From a virus, in the IMG/VR virus record IMGVR_UViG_3300042731_002594, positions 1 to 41,462 of that record: DNA of 41,462 nucleotides; one strand, written 5' to 3'. Shown here piece by piece: positions 4,895-36,707 of this stretch (the first letter of the stretch is position 1; each line of letters starts with the position of its first letter). Position numbers and translations under genes: made by a program. The notes under the pieces were generated by a model. The model saw only the letters and a list, made by a program, of their open reading frames with translations, had not been told where the DNA came from and ran no database searches.

Positions 4895-6039
4895 TCCGCT
4901 CCTCCCGTCTTCAGACTCTCTCGGCAAATCCGCCGTATTTCCTCCGGCGTCGCCTCAACCCTCGGAGAGGACAGCGTCTCCGCCGTCTCTCCCGTCACGT
5001 AGTGCGCCGCTCTTTCGATTTTTCCGCTTCCCGGCCGTCTCTCTACCCACCCGGAAGAAACGGACTTGTCGACCAATCTCGTGACGCTCAGGGGGATTCG
5101 TTGCCCATCCTCAACGGCCGTGTTATACGCAAGCACCAATTTATCCGGATCTATCGCCAATCCCCGATCGATGCACTGCTCAACGTACTTCATGGCGTTG
5201 TATCCGACCGTTGCTGCGTCCGGTCTACCCGGCTCGGCTTTGAGCTTGTATCTCCGCGAGTAGTCTCGAGCCTTGCCGTTGACAAATGTTTTGACGTCTC
5301 TCCAACAACCAAGCGCAAGGCCCCTAGCTGCCACATCTGTTCTGATCTGCTCAAGAATGGCGTCGATGTCGGTGTCTGATTTGCAGTAGGACTCACGGAG
5401 CAATACCGCGAAGGCCGGACCGTCCAGCGGGTCGTAACACTCACCGGCAAGATCGGTCACCAATGCGTCAATCTTTTTCGCAGTGGGATCTTTTACCACT
5501 TCGATGTCTCGTCTATTCGACTCCGACAACGATGTCTTGTCCGATTCGACTCTCGTAGAAGAAAATATATGTTTGTTTTCAGCACAGTTAGGCACAGTAC
5601 GGGTAAGAGTGACGCGCTGTGACGCGCTGTGACGCGCCGTGACGTTTTCGTTCGTTTTGTGACTGCATGTCACGTTTTGTGACGCATCGAGCCGCGCCTT
5701 CGCCTTCCTCTTCTCCCGAGATGTCCTCGCTCTTTGCGCGTCGCTCTGTGATGCTTCCTGCGCATCAGCAAAATTCGGCCAGAACAAACCGTCTTCGACG
5801 ATGGTCCAAACGTTTTTCTCAAGGAGGCGTCTGAGCCCCTTCTCAGCTGTTTCTACCGGGAAACCGTAGCCAATCATCACGGCGACATCCTCGCCGTTGT
5901 AGACGTCGTCTACGAGCCCTGCGCGGTCAAATCGCCTGGCCAATAATGTCATCACGGCTTGTGCCTCCCATCCGAGGAGCTTCCACGTTTTGGTGTCCCT
6001 CGTGTAAATCCTCACATATCGTTCGTTCGACCAGTCCAA
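4891..6039 (-). CDS. Putative phage replication-initiation protein
   Basis: 382 residues from a TTG at 6039 just after the stop of the small basic gene. The first ~95 residues (starting M-D-W-S-N-E-R-Y-V-R-I-Y) look like a winged-helix-type domain: W-E-A-Q-A-V-M-T-L-L, V-A-V-M-I-G-Y-G-F, L-R-R-L-L-E-K-N-V-W-T-I-V. A basic, Ser/Thr-rich linker follows (about 95-165) and then a helical C-terminal domain. This architecture is common in phage replisome-organiser proteins (O/DnaD-like). No DnaC-type loader is recognisable nearby. Function is by architecture only. Confidence 0.5.
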   Translation of the reverse strand: MDWSNERYVRIYTRDTKTWKLLGWEAQAVMTLLARRFDRAGLVDDVYNGEDVAVMIGYGFPVETAEKGLRRLLEKNVWTIVEDGLFWPNFADAQEASQSDAQRARTSREKRKAKARLDASQNVTCSHKTNENVTARHSASQRVTLTRTVPNCAENKHIFSSTRVESDKTSLSESNRRDIEVVKDPTAKKIDALVTDLAGECYDPLDGPAFAVLLRESYCKSDTDIDAILEQIRTDVAARGLALGCWRDVKTFVNGKARDYSRRYKLKAEPGRPDAATVGYNAMKYVEQCIDRGLAIDPDKLVLAYNTAVEDGQRIPLSVTRLVDKSVSSGWVERRPGSGKIERAAHYVTGETAETLSSPRVEATPEEIRRICRESLKTGGAE

Positions 6040-6042
6040 TCC

Positions 6043-6300
6043 CTACGCCTTCAACGCCTCCGGCTCGTTGTAGGACCGGTCCATCTCTTCGATGATCGTC
6101 GCGTCTCTCTCAAAACGCCTGTGTGAATTGAGTTTGCGTCGACCAAGTGGCGCCCGGTTGGCAACCCAGCCCTCGTGTTTCAATCTCGCCTTGGCTCTCT
6201 TTTCGTTGCGCTTGCGAAGCCTGCGGCGGCGGTTTCTCTCGTTGCGATAATCAAGCAAATCTTTCAACATGGTCCCAATTGTCACTTTCGTACCGTCCAC
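6043..6300 (-). CDS. Small very basic hypothetical protein (85 aa)
   Basis: A GTG start at 6300 is preferred because GGAGGTGG lies at the right distance. An ATG at 6333 in the same frame has no good site. The sequence has an Arg/Lys block (R-N-R-R-R-R-L-R-K-R-N-E-K-R) followed by a less basic tail. Likely nucleic-acid binding, but no family is recognised. It is the first protein gene after the structured-RNA locus. Confidence 0.5.
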   Translation of the reverse strand: MDGTKVTIGTMLKDLLDYRNERNRRRRLRKRNEKRAKARLKHEGWVANRAPLGRRKLNSHRRFERDATIIEEMDRSYNEPEALKA

Positions 6301-6351
6301 CTCTCCACCTCCTGCTGCGTCTGTGTATTTCATTTTACAATATCCGAATAG

Positions 6352-6478
6352 TGGGCCGGGCAGGGCTCGAACCTGCAATACGTGTTTCCCCTTCATTCAA
6401 CCTCGATGAGGTGGAGTAGGGCGGGGTGCAACGAGCTGTCCCTACCAGGCATGCGTCTGCCAATTCCGCCACCGGCCC
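6352..6478 (-). tRNA. tRNA-Leu-like gene, over-long (127 nt)
   Basis: Perfect 7-bp acceptor stem (GGGCCGG with CCGGCCC) and A discriminator. T8 G9 are followed by a D-arm typical of leucine tRNAs (GCGG-AATTGGCAGA-CGC), and the T-arm is GCAGG-TTCGAGC-CCTGC. The region between D- and T-arms is about 40 nt too long for a class II tRNA. A possible anticodon stem is GCCT (6450-6447) with AGGT (6403-6400) enclosing 43 nt (6404-6446). No 7-nt loop with T33 can be read, so the anticodon is not assigned. It may be intron-containing, degenerate, or a tRNA-like RNA. CCA is not encoded. Confidence 0.6.
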
Positions 6479-6483
6479 AAGTT

Positions 6484-6503
6484 GCCCCAATCGCTCCAGG
6501 GGC
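6484..6503 (-). other. Hairpin C plus AACTT spacer before tRNA-like gene
   Basis: GCCCC (6503-6499) pairs with GGGGC (6488-6484) around a 10-nt loop. The five bases AACTT (6483-6479) then lead straight into the acceptor stem at 6478. Same layout as hairpin B before the tmRNA. Confidence 0.65.
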
Positions 6504-6528
6504 ATCGGAGAACAGCTGCCAACTGTTG

Positions 6529-6805
6529 TGGAGGCGCCGGGAGTCGAACCCGGGTCCATCTTCCCATTCAGGTACCGATCATTCACGTGCGTAGTCTCAC
6601 AGACAGTAAAGAAAAATGTGAATTGATTCCCGTAAAATGGCGCCGCATACGATACACGGGAACTCTCGCATGTGACGGAAGGTCTAAGCCGCCTTCTGTT
6701 GTTGTACGTCTTCGACGATTCTGAGTTTACGGATTTTTGCCCTGATTCCGTCACCAGGGGCACGCACGATATCTTTCTGTTGGATGTCGAAACCAGTTCG
6801 CCCCC
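6529..6805 (-). ncRNA. ssrA: Phage-encoded tmRNA (ssrA)
   Basis: The 277-nt minus-strand RNA has the tRNA-like ends of tmRNA. The acceptor is GGGGGCG paired with CGCCTCC (one G-U) plus A. The D-loop-like CTGGTTTCGAC follows the 5' strand, and the T-arm is CCGGG-TTCGACT-CCCGG. A clear H-type pseudoknot follows at RNA nt ~45-77: CCCTG/CAGGG is stem 1, ACGGA/TCCGT is stem 2, and there is an A-rich loop. The TAG stop is at 6686-6684. If tagging resumes at GTC (6716, RNA nt 90, as in E. coli), the tag is V-E-D-V-Q-Q-Q-K-A-A; an upstream GCA (6740) in the same frame is an alternative. A 7-bp stem TTCCCGT/ACGGGAA lies after the tag. CCA is not encoded. Confidence 0.88.
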
Positions 6806-6810
6806 AAGTT

Positions 6811-6828
6811 GCCCCGTACACCCGGGGC
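6811..6828 (-). other. Hairpin B plus AACTT spacer before tmRNA
   Basis: GCCCC (6828-6824) pairs with GGGGC (6815-6811) around an 8-nt loop. AACTT (6810-6806) follows and the tmRNA acceptor begins at 6805. A processing or spacer role is inferred from its exact repetition. Confidence 0.65.
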
Positions 6829-6939
6829 CACGGTGGCTGTGTACAGCCATAGCCATTTCACATGTTTTAGACTTAGTCTTTTTCAGTAGCCCGGTGGAAC
6901 CACCCCCTTTCGGATTTTTATATTTGTTAGGGTTAAACT
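6829..6939 (-). other. Unassigned non-coding stretch between hairpins A and B
   Basis: About 110 nt without a credible ORF. It contains small foldbacks on the minus strand: GGTGG-TT-CCACC, AGACT/AGTCT, and GGCTG-TACA-CAGCC. By position it could be a further RNA of the cluster, but no tRNA arms were found. Confidence 0.4.
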
Positions 6940-6957
6940 GCCCCGTATGCCCGAGAC
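6940..6957 (-). other. Hairpin A (degenerate relative of hairpin B)
   Basis: GTCTC pairs with GGGGC (two G-U pairs) around an 8-nt loop, followed by AGTTT. The stretch from CCGTGG through TACGGGGCA matches hairpin B with a few substitutions that keep pairing. Confidence 0.5.
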
Positions 6958-6966
6958 CACGGCTTC

Positions 6967-7046
6967 GTGCCAATCGGTAGACCGTACGGTTGCCATATTT
7001 ATGGCGTGCTGTCGCAACTCGATGCACTCCTGGTGCCGATTGACAC
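6967..7046. ncRNA. 80-nt closed multi-arm RNA structure, unassigned
   Basis: An 11-bp terminal stem (6967-6977 with 7036-7046, one G-U on the minus strand) encloses foldbacks GTGC..GCAC and GCCAT-AAAT-ATGGC and a weak ACC/GGT, giving a cloverleaf-like outline. No T-loop consensus is seen, so it is not a standard tRNA. It lies 2 nt after the long tRNA-like gene. Strand is uncertain; minus fits its neighbours. Confidence 0.4.
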
Positions 7047-7048
7047 TG

Positions 7049-7183
7049 TCCGGCCACTACGAATCGAACGTAGCTTTCCACCTCATGCGAGCGCCCAATA
7101 TTACCAGCCTGTTTTGTATCGCATCCCATGCGACACGATACACTGATAGCAGTAGGCAGATGGGCTTGCACCATCATGGCCGG
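7049..7183 (-). tRNA. tRNA-like gene, over-long (135 nt)
   Basis: Perfect 7-bp acceptor stem (CCGGCCA with TGGCCGG), A discriminator, T8 G9, and a standard T-arm CTACG-TTCGATT-CGTAG. The D-arm would be ATGG-TGCAAGC-CCAT, without the usual GG in the loop. GCCT (7157-7154) and AGGC (7110-7107) can pair around 43 nt (7111-7153), the same length as in the leucine-like gene. Inside it is a strong hairpin TCGCAT-GGG-ATGCGA. The remaining 33 nt before the T-arm are also longer than usual. Identity cannot be assigned. It begins 8 nt after the stop of the annealing-protein gene. Confidence 0.5.
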
Positions 7184-7191
7184 GTCGTTTG

Positions 7192-8403
7192 TCACTTCTG
7201 CTCCTTCGCCGCCGCCCTGGGCTCCATCTCGCTGATCGCCCAGGTGAGCTGCTCTTTGGTCGCGGACATCACCGCAAAGTTCTGTTTGCGGCAAAACTCG
7301 GACAGCTTCACCATGTTGTTATCGCTGCCCCATACGCGCTTTGAAAGATCGATGAGCCGCTGGCGAAGTTCCCCTGTCGCATCGGGTGCAGCCTTTGGTT
7401 GGTCCGGTTTCTCCGGCTGCTTCTTCTCATCCGTGATCCGCCTGTTATCTTCGGCGATGGTGGAGAGAGTCGGCTTCGGCTTCTCTTTCGGTGCATCATC
7501 ACCGTTGCCCTCTCGCTCTTCGCGGACCTCTTCAATTACGGCCTTCCATGTTGTTTCGCCGCTCTTGATTGCCTTGTGAAGCTGGCGCATATGGTCAATC
7601 TGCGCAGGAGACAACTTGTCGAGATCATCGCCTGCATACTCTTCGAGGTCTCCGGGGGTAACGTTAAGCGCGGCAAACGCGTCTATCATCCGTTTCCGAG
7701 CCCCGTCCGGATCCTTGGCCGCGTCGCCATGTCTAATCTCCATGATTCGGCGTCGGCATTCGGCCTGGATGTCACCCGGAACGAGCCGAAGAATTGCGTT
7801 TCTGATCGCCTTGGACTCGGCCGAGCTCTGCTTCTTCGTCATCTCTGCCTCATCTGCCGGGAGGATGTAGTTGACCTTGTTTGATGATGTAACACGTGTT
7901 CCAAGCGCAACCTCTCCCCTCTTCACAAATCGGCGCTCCATCGTCTTTTCGAGAACGGTTTGTTTTGGGATCGCGATATTGTTCTCGATGTCGAATACGG
8001 TCACTTCTATGATTCTTTTTTTGTCGTCCTCCCATAGAATGGATGACTTTACGTCGAGGTTCCCCATAACCCTCATGCACTCCTCGGCAAACCGAATGGA
8101 AAACCCCTCTGCGTTGTCGTATCCGGGGAGCTTGTACCAAGCCGATCCAGGCTGTTTTCCGTTTCCCTTGTCGATGTCGGAATCAGCAAACCCAGGGCGC
8201 TCAACGGCCTTCAGGAGCTTCGAGCGGACGGCGTCCATGCTCCTCGGGAATTTCTTTGCAACCACGAACCGGGCTTCAACCATCGCTTTCTCTCGAGCCG
8301 CCATTACCGCCTCGACGGTCGACCCGGTAGTCTCTATCGATTGTTCTGAAAAGCCATCCCGGGCGACTATTGCGCCGCCTGTGTGTTCGGTTTCTTGAAT
8401 CAT
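7192..8403 (-). CDS. Putative phage recombination / single-strand annealing protein
   Basis: 403 residues from ATG at 8403, which overlaps the stop of the YqaJ gene (ATGA) and has AGGAGGAAAAGGG upstream. The N-terminal 250 residues follow a conserved phage pattern: S-I-R-F-A-E-E-C-M-R-V-M-G-N, R-I-I-E-V-T-V-F-D-I-E, T-V-L-E-K-T-M-E-R-R, S-K-A-I-R-N-A-I-L-R-L-V-P, and P-D-G-A-R-K-R-M-I-D-A-F. This is followed by a K/P/E-rich linker and a C-terminal helical segment. Pairing with a YqaJ nuclease gene is the usual context of RecT/Erf-type annealing proteins. I know the family from phage genomes but cannot name its experimentally proven role. Confidence 0.6.
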   Translation of the reverse strand: MIQETEHTGGAIVARDGFSEQSIETTGSTVEAVMAAREKAMVEARFVVAKKFPRSMDAVRSKLLKAVERPGFADSDIDKGNGKQPGSAWYKLPGYDNAEGFSIRFAEECMRVMGNLDVKSSILWEDDKKRIIEVTVFDIENNIAIPKQTVLEKTMERRFVKRGEVALGTRVTSSNKVNYILPADEAEMTKKQSSAESKAIRNAILRLVPGDIQAECRRRIMEIRHGDAAKDPDGARKRMIDAFAALNVTPGDLEEYAGDDLDKLSPAQIDHMRQLHKAIKSGETTWKAVIEEVREEREGNGDDAPKEKPKPTLSTIAEDNRRITDEKKQPEKPDQPKAAPDATGELRQRLIDLSKRVWGSDNNMVKLSEFCRKQNFAVMSATKEQLTWAISEMEPRAAAKEQK

Positions 8404-9293
8404 ACCCTTTTCCTCCTCATCGTTCGAGATGTTGTTGGCTTGACGGTGCACGTATACCCCTTTCGCGTGGTGGTCGTGAGCGTCAAAATTGTTCCGTCTG
8501 GAAGAGCGCCGAATGTCGCGTCTCCAATCATGGCGCGGAGCTTGGCCTCAAGCTCGTCCAGCGACCTCTTGCAGCTCGTGATATTCTCCTTGGCCTGCTC
8601 CCATTCGTTCGCCAGCTCTACTGCATATGAGTCGAGGGGAACCGTCTCGCCGTTGTCCTCAGGGTAGAGCCTCTTGATTGCATCGAGGCACTTCGGTGAC
8701 GAGACGGGCGGCGGATCCTTGTCAATGATTCGCTGCCGGAATATCTCGAGCCGTGGGATCATTGATTCAATGAAATCATCGTTTCGATCCATGTCGCCGA
8801 GGTGGATCTCAATCCCTCCGACGACTCCGCAGTAGGCCCCCCACGAAGCATCTTTGCAGGCAACCTGGGTCTGAAGCTGTATCTGCAACCAAATGGGAAT
8901 GTCCCCGTCCCACTCGCGGCGTTTCATAAATCCGGCGTGCTTGATCTCGAGCGGGGAAGGGGGATCGAGCATTGGATCTTCGTCGATGTCCCATGTGTCC
9001 CGGTCCACTGTCGCACCGAGCCACGGTATCGACGGGTGGATGGTGATGTCGGTTGCTCCCGTGTCGCGCACATATCGCCCCGTTTTGGCCGCGTAGACGT
9101 TCGCTATTCCGTCCTCTAGCTCCCTGCCGAGGAGCATGGCGTCATTGTCCTCGATCTCTTCTCCGGTCACTTTTGAGACGTAAACATCAAGCGCCGTCCG
9201 ACGCGGATCGAATCCAAGGATCGCCGCAACGTCGGACGCGGTGATAAGCTCTCGGCGCTTGGCCAGCCATTCGGCGCGGGATATGGTTTTCAT
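8400..9293 (-). CDS. YqaJ-like viral recombinase / exonuclease
   Basis: 297 residues. The N-terminus I-T-A-S-D-V-A-A-I-L-G is typical of YqaJ (lambda-exonuclease-like, PD-(D/E)xK) proteins. Expected active-site elements are visible: L-G-R-E-L-E-D at 55-61, D97 in A-T-V-D-R-D, E116-x-K118 in P-L-E-I-K-H-A, and W-L-Q-I-Q-L-Q at 135-141. The C-terminus is helical, then basic. Role: 5'-3' resection of DNA ends to feed the annealing protein encoded next. The start ATG overlaps the TAA of the gene before (TAATG). Confidence 0.88.
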   Translation of the reverse strand: MKTISRAEWLAKRRELITASDVAAILGFDPRRTALDVYVSKVTGEEIEDNDAMLLGRELEDGIANVYAAKTGRYVRDTGATDITIHPSIPWLGATVDRDTWDIDEDPMLDPPSPLEIKHAGFMKRREWDGDIPIWLQIQLQTQVACKDASWGAYCGVVGGIEIHLGDMDRNDDFIESMIPRLEIFRQRIIDKDPPPVSSPKCLDAIKRLYPEDNGETVPLDSYAVELANEWEQAKENITSCKRSLDELEAKLRAMIGDATFGALPDGTILTLTTTTRKGYTCTVKPTTSRTMRRKRV

Positions 9294-9772
9294 TACATCA
9301 CCTCCAGTATCCAGGACATGTATTTTTCAAACGCCGAAGGAACATCGGATGACAGGTCGGCGGCCCAGGAGATACACATGGGGCACCCGTCTGCGTTGCC
9401 AACGGCGGCGTTAAATGCGGCGTAGCTGGAAGCCCCCCTGTGAGCCTTGGTGGCCCTGGCGGCGGCCATCAAGGCCGCCTTTCTTGCGGCCTCGTATCCG
9501 GTCACCAGATACCACCAGACGATGTCAGGACAGTCCCACAGGTGTGCTACGTCAAGCGCGACACGCCTCGACACTCGGTTGGCTCTCCACGGCGAACGGT
9601 CGTAGAGCATGCGTGACAGCACCCATATGCGGTCAAATAAATTGACATCGAGCGCGGCGATCTCGTCCTGTGAGAGCTTCTCGCGACAGCCCCAGAGCCA
9701 GCGCAGCCGTCCCTCTGTGTAGCCGGCGCACGGGCCGTATGACAGGATCTGCTCTACGGTCGCGGTGATCAC
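9293..9772 (-). CDS. Conserved phage protein, paralog of 2059-2577 (copy B)
   Basis: 159 residues from a GTG overlapping the stop of the ATPase gene (GTGA). It shares with copy A the N-terminal segments I/L-T-A-T-V-E, F/Y-G-P-C, S-P-W-R-A-N-R-V, D-V/I-V-W-W-Y-L-V-T-G-Y-E-A-A and the C-terminal E-K-Y-x-x-W-I-L-E-V-M. The middle is different: no A-W-D-T repeats, instead a shorter Ala-rich stretch. A 19-bp block at the 3' end is identical between copies. Function unknown. It sits inside the recombination operon. Confidence 0.75.
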   Translation of the reverse strand: MITATVEQILSYGPCAGYTEGRLRWLWGCREKLSQDEIAALDVNLFDRIWVLSRMLYDRSPWRANRVSRRVALDVAHLWDCPDIVWWYLVTGYEAARKAALMAAARATKAHRGASSYAAFNAAVGNADGCPMCISWAADLSSDVPSAFEKYMSWILEVM

Positions 9773-16764: not shown

Positions 16765-19212
16765 TTACACTCCACCTATATGAGACCCGTAATACTTGTC
16801 AGTATTCGCGTCGTAGACGAATGAGAAAATCCCGACCTCACTGTGACCTATTTCCACAGCCCCTGGGTCCCCGTTTGGCCAATAAACATTTGCGGGCCAT
16901 CCATCGATTGTGATTGTTCCGCCTGGGTTATTGGCTTCTATAATTAGATGGCATCCAACCGCGACTCCGTTCGGATCGGCGAATGATACAGATGTGATGT
17001 TACCGGTTGCCGTGCATTTCTGGAGCGGCTTTCCGGTTGCCCATTGTACCGAAAGAGATGAACTGTAAGAGTATAATGTGGGAGTGCCTCCGAAGCTAAA
17101 GTTTAGGCAATCCCTCACTGAGATAGCGTTTAGATCTATTTCACTTGCCCCTGAAAAACCTATTGAATCATCGCATGTAAAAAGTATTCTGGAATAGCTT
17201 CCATAGGCATAGACCTGGATATTTGCGTAATGCGACCCGTCGTTGTTTTTTGCGTACAGTTCGGATTTTAAATGAGTCAATCCAAGTGCAGACACACCAC
17301 AATTGGCGGATGCACCGGTGTTTTTGCGAAATACCCAAAGCTCACCATCCTCATTGGCGATGCTGTGAATGTTGTCTGGAGACGTTCCTCCGTTTATCAG
17401 AATATCCCTTGGTCCATCCCACTGCTGGCCGTACAGGGCGCAACCCGTGTTGTATATATTTATTACCCCAGGCCTGTTTGATGTATCCGTCTGACTCAAG
17501 TACAGGCAGACGGATCCGTCCCCTGCGGATGGAATATAGATCGCACCTTTGCCGGTAGAGATGTTGAAGTTCGTTCCATTGTGCTTGATCAGGCCGTATT
17601 TATCGGGGTCCGTTGCGTCGGAAGCGTGAAAAATAAGAGCGGGGTTGTCCTGCATCGGGTACCCAAAATCTGTCGCAACGTCAGCCTGCTCGCAGATAAT
17701 GATCGTCCTGGATGAAGAGGGGGTTGATATCATGAGGGCGTCGAATGTCTGCGCCGTACTGTATCTCATGCTCGCGTCAAACCCTTCGCCGAAGTACACC
17801 GGGACCGCATCCTGAACCATGAATCCGGCCTGACACTCTATGTATCCGTGGACATAGAGATCGTCATCTGAATTGCAGAGTACGGGTGCACCGTCCCCGA
17901 GATGGATTCCGCACGCCGCAGCGCCGGAGGTCCGGTTGATATTCAGAAAGTCGTTGACGCTGTCCCACTTGAACGTTGACTCGCTATCGACTCCGGACCC
18001 GGTTCCATAAACGATCTGGCCCGCCGGTTCGGAAACCCCGCCGGAAGCTCCGTAGAGTTGGTGAAGGGCGTTGATGATGGACACCTGCCCGAACTCACTT
18101 TCAAACGTAGCCCACTGTGCGCTCCCGTCTCCAAGTAGAATGTAGGGCGTCGTCCAATTCGTTATGATGTAGTTTCCGGTGAATCTGATATCCCCATCGG
18201 CCGTTGGGTAAAGAACGATTGATGCTTTGTTGTTCCCCGATTCGAGCCTGACAACTTCGGAGGCGTCCAACAAAATGTCTCCGTTGGAAACGAGATTGAT
18301 TTCTCCGTTGTTCGCCCCCTGCGCTGTAGCAGTGAGGTTGATTACCGCATCACCGCCGGCGGCTGAGTAAACCGGAGCGGCCTCGATGTCTACCTGACAA
18401 TTCGTATCGGTATCGGTAGCTGTAACTCCGAAGGTTGCCCCGGTGTAGTAAAAATTGGCCCCGTCAGTGTTGAGCTTCTTCGTTGCGTCGAACCACGGCA
18501 CCCCGTTATCGTCGTAGCTGTAGCCGTAGAGCCAAACTCCGATATGGGCGGTTCCAACCGTCTCGAAGTCAAAGCAAAAAACATCATCATCCGAAAACAC
18601 GTGAGACGGAGATGATGCCCCCATGTGAAGACCGCATGCTGGAGCGGCACCGCCACGGTTGATTCCGAGAAAATCATTCGTGTCGTCCCACCAAAGGCTG
18701 TTTGGGTCCTCATCGAGGTCCCCTGTGGCGCTTCCAAACTGAATAGCGCCAGGCGTTAGCCCTGACACCCCCCCGGATGAAATGGCGTCCAGAGCGTCGT
18801 CTATGCCCTTCAGATGGGACGCCAGGTGATCGACATGGGAAGAGGTGGGGGCAACCGCTGGGGTGTAGTAGCTCGGCGCGTAGTCGATGTCCAGTAAGTC
18901 TCCGTCGATTTCGTCCGCTCCGCCTCGGATGTGTCTTGCCGCGTGGTCTGATACGTCAACCCCATCGACGAGGCTTACGTCTGTGATGTTCTGCGAGTGC
19001 ATGTTGAGATCGCCGGAGGTAATGTCAAGCGTCGTCACGCGGGCCGGCTTGTTCTTCGCGAGGAACTTCGTGACATTTCCGTCTCCGTCTTTGCCACCCC
19101 ACATCTTGAAGCCGAGGTCTGAATCTGCGATGTCCTCGACGGCGAGCTGCGTATTGAGAATCGAGCTTATATCGTCTTCGATGTGGAATATTCTTTTTTC
19201 TTCGAGGGCCAT
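16765..19212 (-). CDS. Large tail fibre protein (815 aa)
   Basis: The N-terminal ~140 residues carry H-S-Q-N-I-T-D-V-S-L-V-D-G-V-D-V-S-D-H-A-A-R-H and repeated H-A/L-x-x-H segments seen in many tail fibres. The body has at least two related modules: W-W-D-D-T-N-D-F-L-G-I-N-R-G-G near residue 170 and K-W-D-S-V-N-D-F-L-N-I-N-R near 410. Each is followed by C-G-I/L-H and a display of short beta strands. It ends Y-Y-G-S-H-I-G-G-V. Expected role: trimeric adhesin binding the host surface. It is downstream of the baseplate genes, as in Mu-like phages. Confidence 0.75.
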   Translation of the reverse strand: MALEEKRIFHIEDDISSILNTQLAVEDIADSDLGFKMWGGKDGDGNVTKFLAKNKPARVTTLDITSGDLNMHSQNITDVSLVDGVDVSDHAARHIRGGADEIDGDLLDIDYAPSYYTPAVAPTSSHVDHLASHLKGIDDALDAISSGGVSGLTPGAIQFGSATGDLDEDPNSLWWDDTNDFLGINRGGAAPACGLHMGASSPSHVFSDDDVFCFDFETVGTAHIGVWLYGYSYDDNGVPWFDATKKLNTDGANFYYTGATFGVTATDTDTNCQVDIEAAPVYSAAGGDAVINLTATAQGANNGEINLVSNGDILLDASEVVRLESGNNKASIVLYPTADGDIRFTGNYIITNWTTPYILLGDGSAQWATFESEFGQVSIINALHQLYGASGGVSEPAGQIVYGTGSGVDSESTFKWDSVNDFLNINRTSGAAACGIHLGDGAPVLCNSDDDLYVHGYIECQAGFMVQDAVPVYFGEGFDASMRYSTAQTFDALMISTPSSSRTIIICEQADVATDFGYPMQDNPALIFHASDATDPDKYGLIKHNGTNFNISTGKGAIYIPSAGDGSVCLYLSQTDTSNRPGVINIYNTGCALYGQQWDGPRDILINGGTSPDNIHSIANEDGELWVFRKNTGASANCGVSALGLTHLKSELYAKNNDGSHYANIQVYAYGSYSRILFTCDDSIGFSGASEIDLNAISVRDCLNFSFGGTPTLYSYSSSLSVQWATGKPLQKCTATGNITSVSFADPNGVAVGCHLIIEANNPGGTITIDGWPANVYWPNGDPGAVEIGHSEVGIFSFVYDANTDKYYGSHIGGV

Positions 19213-35028: not shown

Positions 35029-36707
35029 GATTCAATCTCTCTTTCTGTGGACATCGCGGCCGCGAGCATGGCCGGGGCAATGCGTGACATCGCCTCAACC
35101 GCGTCGGTTCCGTATTCCTTATGGAGTTCAAGAAGCGGACGCATCGCGGCGACCTTCTGCTCGTTCTCCTTCGCGACCTGCTTGATGTTGTGCGACCACT
35201 TCGACCCGTTGATTTCCCTGGCCGTCCGCGTGTTGGTCGTCCATCCTTCTGTCACTTGTGTTTTGTAGGCGGCGGCCTGTTTTACCGGGTCTACAGACGG
35301 CTCGACCTGTCCGAACCATTCCGTTTGCAACCATGCCCGCTTGATGTCGTATTGTTTCGGATCGCTGTAAGCGGATAGGAACCCTTGTGCCTCAATTTTC
35401 CCGAGGAGAAGTTCGGATACGAACCACTCTTCCCAAAGGTTCTTGCAATGGGCGGCCGCAAAGCGGGGCCGCTCCTTGGCCTTGAACGTGCTCCATTTGT
35501 TGTTCGCCGCCTGAGATGCCGAATAGTTTTTGTTGAACGACATCATGAGGATCTCCGGAGGACAACCGAGAGACCACGCGAGCCCGACCATCACCGCCGC
35601 CTCGAACGCGCCGAAGTTGATGTCACTTCCGTCTCGGAATACGGTCGGCTCTTCTCCCACCGCGAGGCGCTCCATGAACAGCCCAGGCATGATCTTGTTG
35701 AGCTGAAGCGGTCCAGCGGTACCGGCCGGATCTACAACCGTGTCCTTCCGGGTCGCTGCCTTTCCAAATGGCATCGTTCCAGGCGCGGCCTTGTCGCGCT
35801 TGATAAATCCAATGATGTACGAAGAAATTTCGGCCTTGAGCTGAGCGGCTCCGCGCTGTTTCAGAATCGAGTTGAGGGGCTGTATTGCAATGGAAAGCAG
35901 GGGCTCTCCACGTACGCCGTCCTCGCGCTTGTCGATACCGTAGACCATCCACGCGATGAGCCGGTTTGACTTGGCGCCGCGAGCCGAAACATAGGTGTAT
36001 CGGTCGTCGAAGACTTCGTTTGTCCCCTCGTATACCCAGTAACCGAGGTGGCGTCCGTTTTTGTCCCGGTGGACTCCATCAACCACGGACTCATCCAGTG
36101 CCTTGTCCGGTGGCGTCTGGATTCGGTCACCGTTGACTATCGAGATCTGCGGTAGGTTTGTCGCCCTGTCCTGGCGACAGATGACCAGGCAATCCCCGGA
36201 GACCAATGCCTCCGTGTAGATCTGAGCCTGTAGCTGACCGTCCTCGCGGCTGCCCTTTGCGTCGATGATCTCCTTGGACTCACCGTAGATGCGCCAACGC
36301 TTTTCGAGCGTTTCCGTCCACGACGGGGCACCGTTGGCCGATACGCCGGAAAGGGCGTCCTCCGGAAGACCGAGAATCGACTCCTCGGGGATGGACTCGG
36401 GACACAGTCCGGTATTGATGATGTCGGTGACAAAACGACGGACTATTCCGCGCCCGTACGAGTTTCCGTAGAACAGTGCCGCAGACCGGCGCCGCAGCTT
36501 CCAGTAGTCGAGCCCGCGTAGCTCCTCGAGAGTTTCGCCGATGCCGTCGAAAAACTGGCTACCGTCGTAGTATCCCGAGCCGTTGGAAAAATTGACCGTC
36601 GATGCGGTCGCCGGTGACGGCTGCTCGACTGCGTCCGTCGACTCCGGCCACGTCCAGGGCAACTCTTCCTCGGCGGCCAGGCGGCGGTCTCGTCTCCAGA
36701 GCGCCAT
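35025..36707 (-). CDS. Portal protein (lambda family)
   Basis: 560 residues. Contains the lambda portal features: L-R-R-R-S-A-A-L-F-Y-G-N-S-Y-G-R-G-I-V-R, E-A-L-V-S-G-D-C-L-V, G-F-I-K-R and the segment S-F-N-K-N-Y-S-A-S-Q-A-A. It forms the 12-mer gate at one capsid vertex for DNA entry and exit and bears the connector. It starts by TGATG overlap with the gpW gene. Confidence 0.9.
   Translation of the reverse strand: MALWRRDRRLAAEEELPWTWPESTDAVEQPSPATASTVNFSNGSGYYDGSQFFDGIGETLEELRGLDYWKLRRRSAALFYGNSYGRGIVRRFVTDIINTGLCPESIPEESILGLPEDALSGVSANGAPSWTETLEKRWRIYGESKEIIDAKGSREDGQLQAQIYTEALVSGDCLVICRQDRATNLPQISIVNGDRIQTPPDKALDESVVDGVHRDKNGRHLGYWVYEGTNEVFDDRYTYVSARGAKSNRLIAWMVYGIDKREDGVRGEPLLSIAIQPLNSILKQRGAAQLKAEISSYIIGFIKRDKAAPGTMPFGKAATRKDTVVDPAGTAGPLQLNKIMPGLFMERLAVGEEPTVFRDGSDINFGAFEAAVMVGLAWSLGCPPEILMMSFNKNYSASQAANNKWSTFKAKERPRFAAAHCKNLWEEWFVSELLLGKIEAQGFLSAYSDPKQYDIKRAWLQTEWFGQVEPSVDPVKQAAAYKTQVTEGWTTNTRTAREINGSKWSHNIKQVAKENEQKVAAMRPLLELHKEYGTDAVEAMSRIAPAMLAAAMSTEREIES

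Follow-up and report, generated by a model that had tools for sequence, protein, structure and literature searches.

A compact one-piece tmRNA with a rare K-A-A tag ending in the genome of a contractile-tailed phage

Why do phages keep a tmRNA of their own? The question is touched by a locus whose short tmRNA carries a clear, unusual and directly testable tag. It lies in the IMG/VR virus record IMGVR_UViG_3300042731_002594, of which the whole analysed stretch of 41,462 nucleotides is called the window here. A first-pass annotation, made from the letters alone, had placed a phage-encoded tmRNA at 6529-6805. The Rfam model RF00023 matches the minus strand of 6526-6805 over its full length (model positions 1-374) with 85.1 bits (gathering score 47, E value 9.3e-32), and the same Rfam scan returned no other match at or above the gathering score anywhere in the window. 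The region encodes a well-formed, compact one-piece tmRNA (ssrA) of 280 nt as aligned, which confirms the earlier observation. Of the span first given, the 5' end at 6805 is correct, whereas position 6529 is the discriminator A and the encoded 3' end is at 6526. As a yardstick, the model was applied to 79 bacterial genomes (39 + 40), whose tmRNAs scored 117.5-209.5 bits among the matches listed; matches below the cut-off, mostly tRNA-sized, reached at most 44.5 bits among those listed. The score found here is therefore well outside tRNA noise and below that of a typical bacterial tmRNA.

The order of the parts in the gene, with the 5' acceptor strand first and the 3' acceptor strand last, is colinear with RF00023. 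This rules out a two-piece, circularly permuted tmRNA, and the corresponding model RF04321 gives only 22.6 bits, below its gathering score of 47. Two further candidates were set aside: an archaeal RNase P match inside the tmRNA (20.5 bits against a gathering score of 84) was taken as spurious, and a 319-aa ORF (6335-7294) that spans the RNA cassette, matching no Pfam family, was taken as a chance frame. A search of 5900-7400 gave no sigma-70-type promoter. The tmRNA at 6526-6805 escapes ARAGORN at default settings, so that the ARAGORN run proposed earlier as a check would have misled.

The tRNA-like domain is built from a 5' part, GGGGGCGAACUGGUUUCGAC (6786-6805, minus strand), placed by sequence and by the RF00023 alignment, and a 3' part (6530-6553, minus strand) with the T-arm CCGGG-UUCGACU-CCCGG and the acceptor strand CGCCUCC. 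In the acceptor GGGGGCG/CGCCUCC, with the RNA numbered from window position 6805, G3 stands opposite U274, which makes the G3-U70 pair, the identity pair for alanyl-tRNA synthetase. The discriminator A at 6529 (A277 of the RNA) is followed by CAA; the CCA end is thus not fully encoded and needs trimming and repair. Helix P2 includes CGUGCGU (RNA 38-44, 6762-6768) on its 5' side and ACGCACG (RNA 214-220, 6586-6592) on its 3' side, both on the minus strand. The exact 20-nt 5' end also occurs in 37 genome contigs, mostly of Planctomycetota, Deltaproteobacteria including Anaeromyxobacter, and Aminicenantes, and it was rejected as a means of naming the host because it is too unspecific. The tmRNAs closest by sequence share mainly the 5' and 3' ends, which occur across many phyla.

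The elements that set the reading frame follow on the same strand. Pseudoknot 1 (PK1; 6729-6759) is of the H-type, and the stems noted in the first reading do form this arrangement at RNA 47-77: CCCUG/CAGGG pairs 47-51 with 62-66 and ACGGA/UCCGU pairs 55-59 with 73-77. The tag frame (RNA 90-122, 6684-6716), GUC GAA GAC GUA CAA CAA CAG AAG GCG GCU UAG, encodes VEDVQQQKAA. Its resume codon GUC at RNA nt 90 lies 12 nt beyond the end of PK1 at 77, and the independently made Rfam alignment assigns this GUC to its resume-codon column, in agreement with the resumption point and tag that had been predicted. A valine codon is unusual at this position, as most tags start with Ala. Four nucleotides before it stands A86 (6720), the frame determinant, within G85, A86 and A87. 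In E. coli tmRNA, the distance from PK1 down to the resume codon is likewise 12 nt; A86 is indispensable, U85G does no harm, and position 87 favours a purine (PMC2481249). By these data, G85 and A87 are of the types tolerated. The frame closes in GCG GCU UAG, as first read, and the loop of a P5-like hairpin GAAGG/CCUUC (6678-6696, minus strand) holds the stop codon, as in E. coli. Only 0.34% of random frames in the contig end a peptide of 7-34 aa in Ala-Ala-stop. Further downstream, a candidate second pseudoknot (RNA 134-180, 6626-6672, minus strand) combines a 7-bp stem (134-140/154-160) with a 9-bp stem (143-151/172-180). It is plausible, but suggestive at most, since 35 of 300 shuffles hold a comparable H-type fold of 7 + 7 bp somewhere.

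The surroundings of the gene are those of a phage. A 53,031-base IMG/VR contig (G001) includes the entire window at 100% identity and has the tmRNA at 18094-18373; it may come from the same sample as the window and is not counted as independent support. The gene content is that of a contractile-tailed phage, with terminase subunits, portal, head maturation protease, major head protein, sheath, tape measure and baseplate; the proteins are most similar, at about 36-47% identity, to those of Shewanella phage SppYZU01, Aeromonas phage AeroV_348, Acinetobacter phage Scuro and vibriophages. The neighbours of the tmRNA itself serve recombination or are otherwise non-structural, with a RecE-type exonuclease (8400-9293) and a phrog_3657 gene (7192-8451) just upstream of the RNA cassette. 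With positive controls that worked, no SmpB and no tyrosine integrase were found in the window or the 53-kb record, and Pfam scans of the main ORFs gave no serine integrase. Two features of the wider window were also noted. Positions 1-127 hold a tandem repeat of about 42 bases per unit that runs on in the 53-kb contig, and 2291-2400 and 9486-9595 are 84% identical, within ORFs 2059-2604 and 9293-9772 that look like paralogues.

Given that tmRNA genes are known as attachment sites (PMC3029335; PMC11915505) and that the locus occurs in no independent isolate, it might be asked whether a host ssrA was caught here at an integration site or by misassembly. This is highly improbable. The tmRNA has phage genes on both sides and lies within the 53-kb record with more than 18 kb of sequence to one side and 34 kb to the other, neither record has a tyrosine integrase, and both the score and the length of the tmRNA fall outside those of the sampled bacterial tmRNAs. 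An integration site was rejected on the missing tyrosine integrase and the internal position. The locus is phage sequence on a myovirus contig, and the designation as a phage-encoded tmRNA is borne out by the covariance-model match, the RNA structure, the phage genes around it and the enclosing contig.

Among the records examined from this phage group, the tmRNA stands alone. None of the 33 terminase-family records examined (30 viral contigs, many of them fragments, and 3 named phages) has a tmRNA above the cut-off, the only other copy found is that in the identical 53-kb contig, so that there is one distinct sequence in all, and the cassette DNA has no similar record in the phage collection. 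In G003, the nearest relative covered over its length, RecE and the 7192-8451 gene have orthologues in the same order; the second of these is overlapped at its end, over four bases, by the ORF that comes next, with no match to any RNA family further downstream. The absence of the tmRNA from relatives and the overlapping ORFs of G003 make the tmRNA and its tRNA-like neighbours, about 0.8 kb in all, look like a lineage-specific cassette of cargo.

One of these neighbours (6351-6478, minus strand; RF00005 33.7 bits) has a Leu-type D-arm and an intact T-arm and acceptor, with some 70 nt between D-arm and T-arm that hold a GGTAGGG/CCCTAC hairpin; ARAGORN accepts it only when a 36-nt intron is allowed. 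A weaker tRNA-like element (7050-7183, minus strand), delimited by sequence and fold, has the acceptor CCGGCCA/UGGCCGG, the T-arm CUACG-UUCGAUU-CGUAG and an unusually long middle, and is recognized by neither Rfam nor ARAGORN. The tmRNA and the tRNA-like element downstream of it are both preceded by GGGGCAACUUGGG, which lies across the 5' end (direct repeat 6476-6488/6803-6815). Upstream of the tmRNA, a 24-nt imperfect direct repeat (6810-6833/6939-6962) is GC-rich and hairpin-forming. This repeat and the shorter leader common to the tmRNA and the tRNA-like gene are possibly RNA processing signals. A relative, G029, carries at 36160-36282 (L213 1501-1623) a 119-nt tRNA (RF00005 48.2 bits) whose D-, T- and acceptor arms are intact and whose CCA is encoded, with the anticodon region expanded by a long insert; a 17-bit match to this tRNA was rejected as a tmRNA. 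Expanded tRNAs may recur in this phage group.

Is the tmRNA still functional? Its score is below not only those of bacterial tmRNAs but also those of three other viral tmRNAs (104.8-132.7 bits), which, together with the ARAGORN miss, makes a decaying copy conceivable. Such an RNA would tag nothing, or would compete for SmpB and EF-Tu in the manner of the TLD-only tmRNA of mycobacteriophage DS6A. The degenerate look of the neighbouring tRNA-like genes points the same way, as does the length of 280 nt, since the shortest of 86 sampled bacterial tmRNAs measures 341 nt. Other viral tmRNAs are nearly as short (284-300 nt), however, and PK1, A86, the closed Ala-Ala frame and the P5 stop hairpin have all been retained, unlike in DS6A, so that decay or a decoy role is unlikely.

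How unusual the tag is was judged from two pattern scans of viral contigs read by ARAGORN, which gave 104 distinct tags, a sample biased to pattern-matching, ARAGORN-readable tmRNAs and including a few doubtful tags. An Ala-Ala ending is present in 83 of these 104, preceded by L in 52, M in 11, V in 6, I in 6, A in 4, Q in 3 and K in 1. Lysine at position -3 is accordingly found in one of 104 distinct viral tags, and in none of 64 distinct bacterial ones. The lone viral case, ADSYYQLKAA, is an independent one and belongs to a tmRNA at 8458-8810 of a 53-kb phage contig (IMGVR_UViG_3300025307_000067, here L271), which scores 132.7 bits with RF00023 and has exonuclease and terminase genes nearby. 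The K-A-A ending is rare, not unique; the tag called non-standard at first reading deserves that name for its rarity and is not the first of its kind. Two other compact viral tmRNAs (289-290 nt; L056 6844-7132 and L096 2311-2600) were seen to resume at a Val codon and to carry one and the same tag, VNDDVEFESYALAA. They have the 5' end in common with the tmRNA described here; the body and the tag are not clearly shared.

What would become of a protein that carries VEDVQQQKAA? The tag lacks the AANDxxY part, which SspB reads in E. coli; SspB is not universal. The structure of E. coli ClpX with an ssrA tag revealed direct contacts to Ala-Ala-COO-, and mutating either alanine raises KM, whereas a change of the antepenultimate Leu raises the KM of ClpXP only modestly (PMC7652416). 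Natural ClpXP C-motif-1 substrates with NAA, PAA and EAA ends are listed in PMC9775585. The dominance of Ala-Ala-COO-, the modest role of Leu at -3 and these substrates lead to the expectation that VEDVQQQKAA is a degron: in a host with an E. coli-like ClpX it probably acts as one, possibly weaker than LAA.

By the same evidence, the earlier idea that K-A-A may change the fate of tagged proteins gains little. In its full form, phage tags with Lys at -3 (VEDVQQQKAA and ADSYYQLKAA) would have evolved to weaken or redirect ClpXP recognition; the phage tmRNA would compete with that of the host, ribosomes would be rescued, and tagged proteins would be stable or passed to another protease, sparing the phage's own truncated proteins or steering those of the host. 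The lysine, the Q-rich and Tyr-free tag in place of the usual YALAA, the rarity of K at -3 in both tag samples and its occurrence with K-A-A in a second, unlike phage tmRNA speak for such selection. With the terminal Ala-Ala kept, the antepenultimate residue of modest weight for E. coli ClpXP (PMC7652416) and NAA, PAA and EAA ends among its natural substrates (PMC9775585), escape from or redirection of proteolysis is quite unlikely. The first reading also offered support of translation late in infection as a possible benefit; the genes next to the tmRNA are for recombination and other non-structural functions.

Ribosome rescue together with host SmpB is the likeliest role, because what has been conserved serves charging, entry and frame choice. 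To this reading, that of a phage ssrA which host factors charge and load and whose K-A-A tag is a ClpXP-type degron, we assign a probability of roughly 70%. The gene, the anatomy of its RNA, the predicted frame and the place in a phage genome are direct readings; expression and the steps that follow are predicted from them. Once expressed, the tmRNA would probably receive alanine from the alanyl-tRNA synthetase of the host, be bound by host SmpB and enter ribosomes that have stalled on a broken or non-stop mRNA. Translation would resume at RNA nt 90, adding Ala from the charged tmRNA and then V-E-D-V-Q-Q-Q-K-A-A, after which the ribosome would be released. KAA would stay a ClpXP-type degron, perhaps a weaker one than LAA, and the main benefit expected is extra ribosome rescue during infection.

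Phage tmRNAs as such are already known. They have been described from mycobacteriophages (Bxz1, Cali, Catera, Wildcat and others), Bacillus phage G and DS6A (PMC4131195) and from huge phages (PMC7162821); of 18,146 phage genomes, 402 carry one, about 2.3% (PMC9004378). On their role, two of these papers go no further than proposals (PMC9004378, PMC7162821). Both of these surveys used default ARAGORN (PMC9004378, PMC7162821); as this program at default misses a clear tmRNA here, ARAGORN-based phage tmRNA counts may be too low. With E. coli ssrA and bacterial one-piece tmRNAs in general, the present RNA shares a TLD with G3-U70, P2, PK1, the resume codon at nt 90, A86 and the stop in P5; it differs in having one candidate further pseudoknot in place of three, a Val resume codon and a tag ending in KAA and not LAA. 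Like the known phage tmRNAs it is a phage-borne ssrA that presumably uses the host's machinery, but it comes from another group, a myovirus with structural genes related to SppYZU01 and Scuro. The tmRNA of phage Melnitz is two-piece, the one described here one-piece. L271 offers a phage context and a tag ending in K-A-A as well, but its tmRNA has 353 nt, a longer body, the higher score given above and an Ala resume codon, and the terminase is of a different family. The TLD-only tmRNA of DS6A (PMC4131195, PMC11915505) is also phage-borne and reduced, but is without a tag frame, whereas both the tag frame and PK1 are present here. New to the known phage tmRNAs is thus a compact one-piece member with a rare tag.
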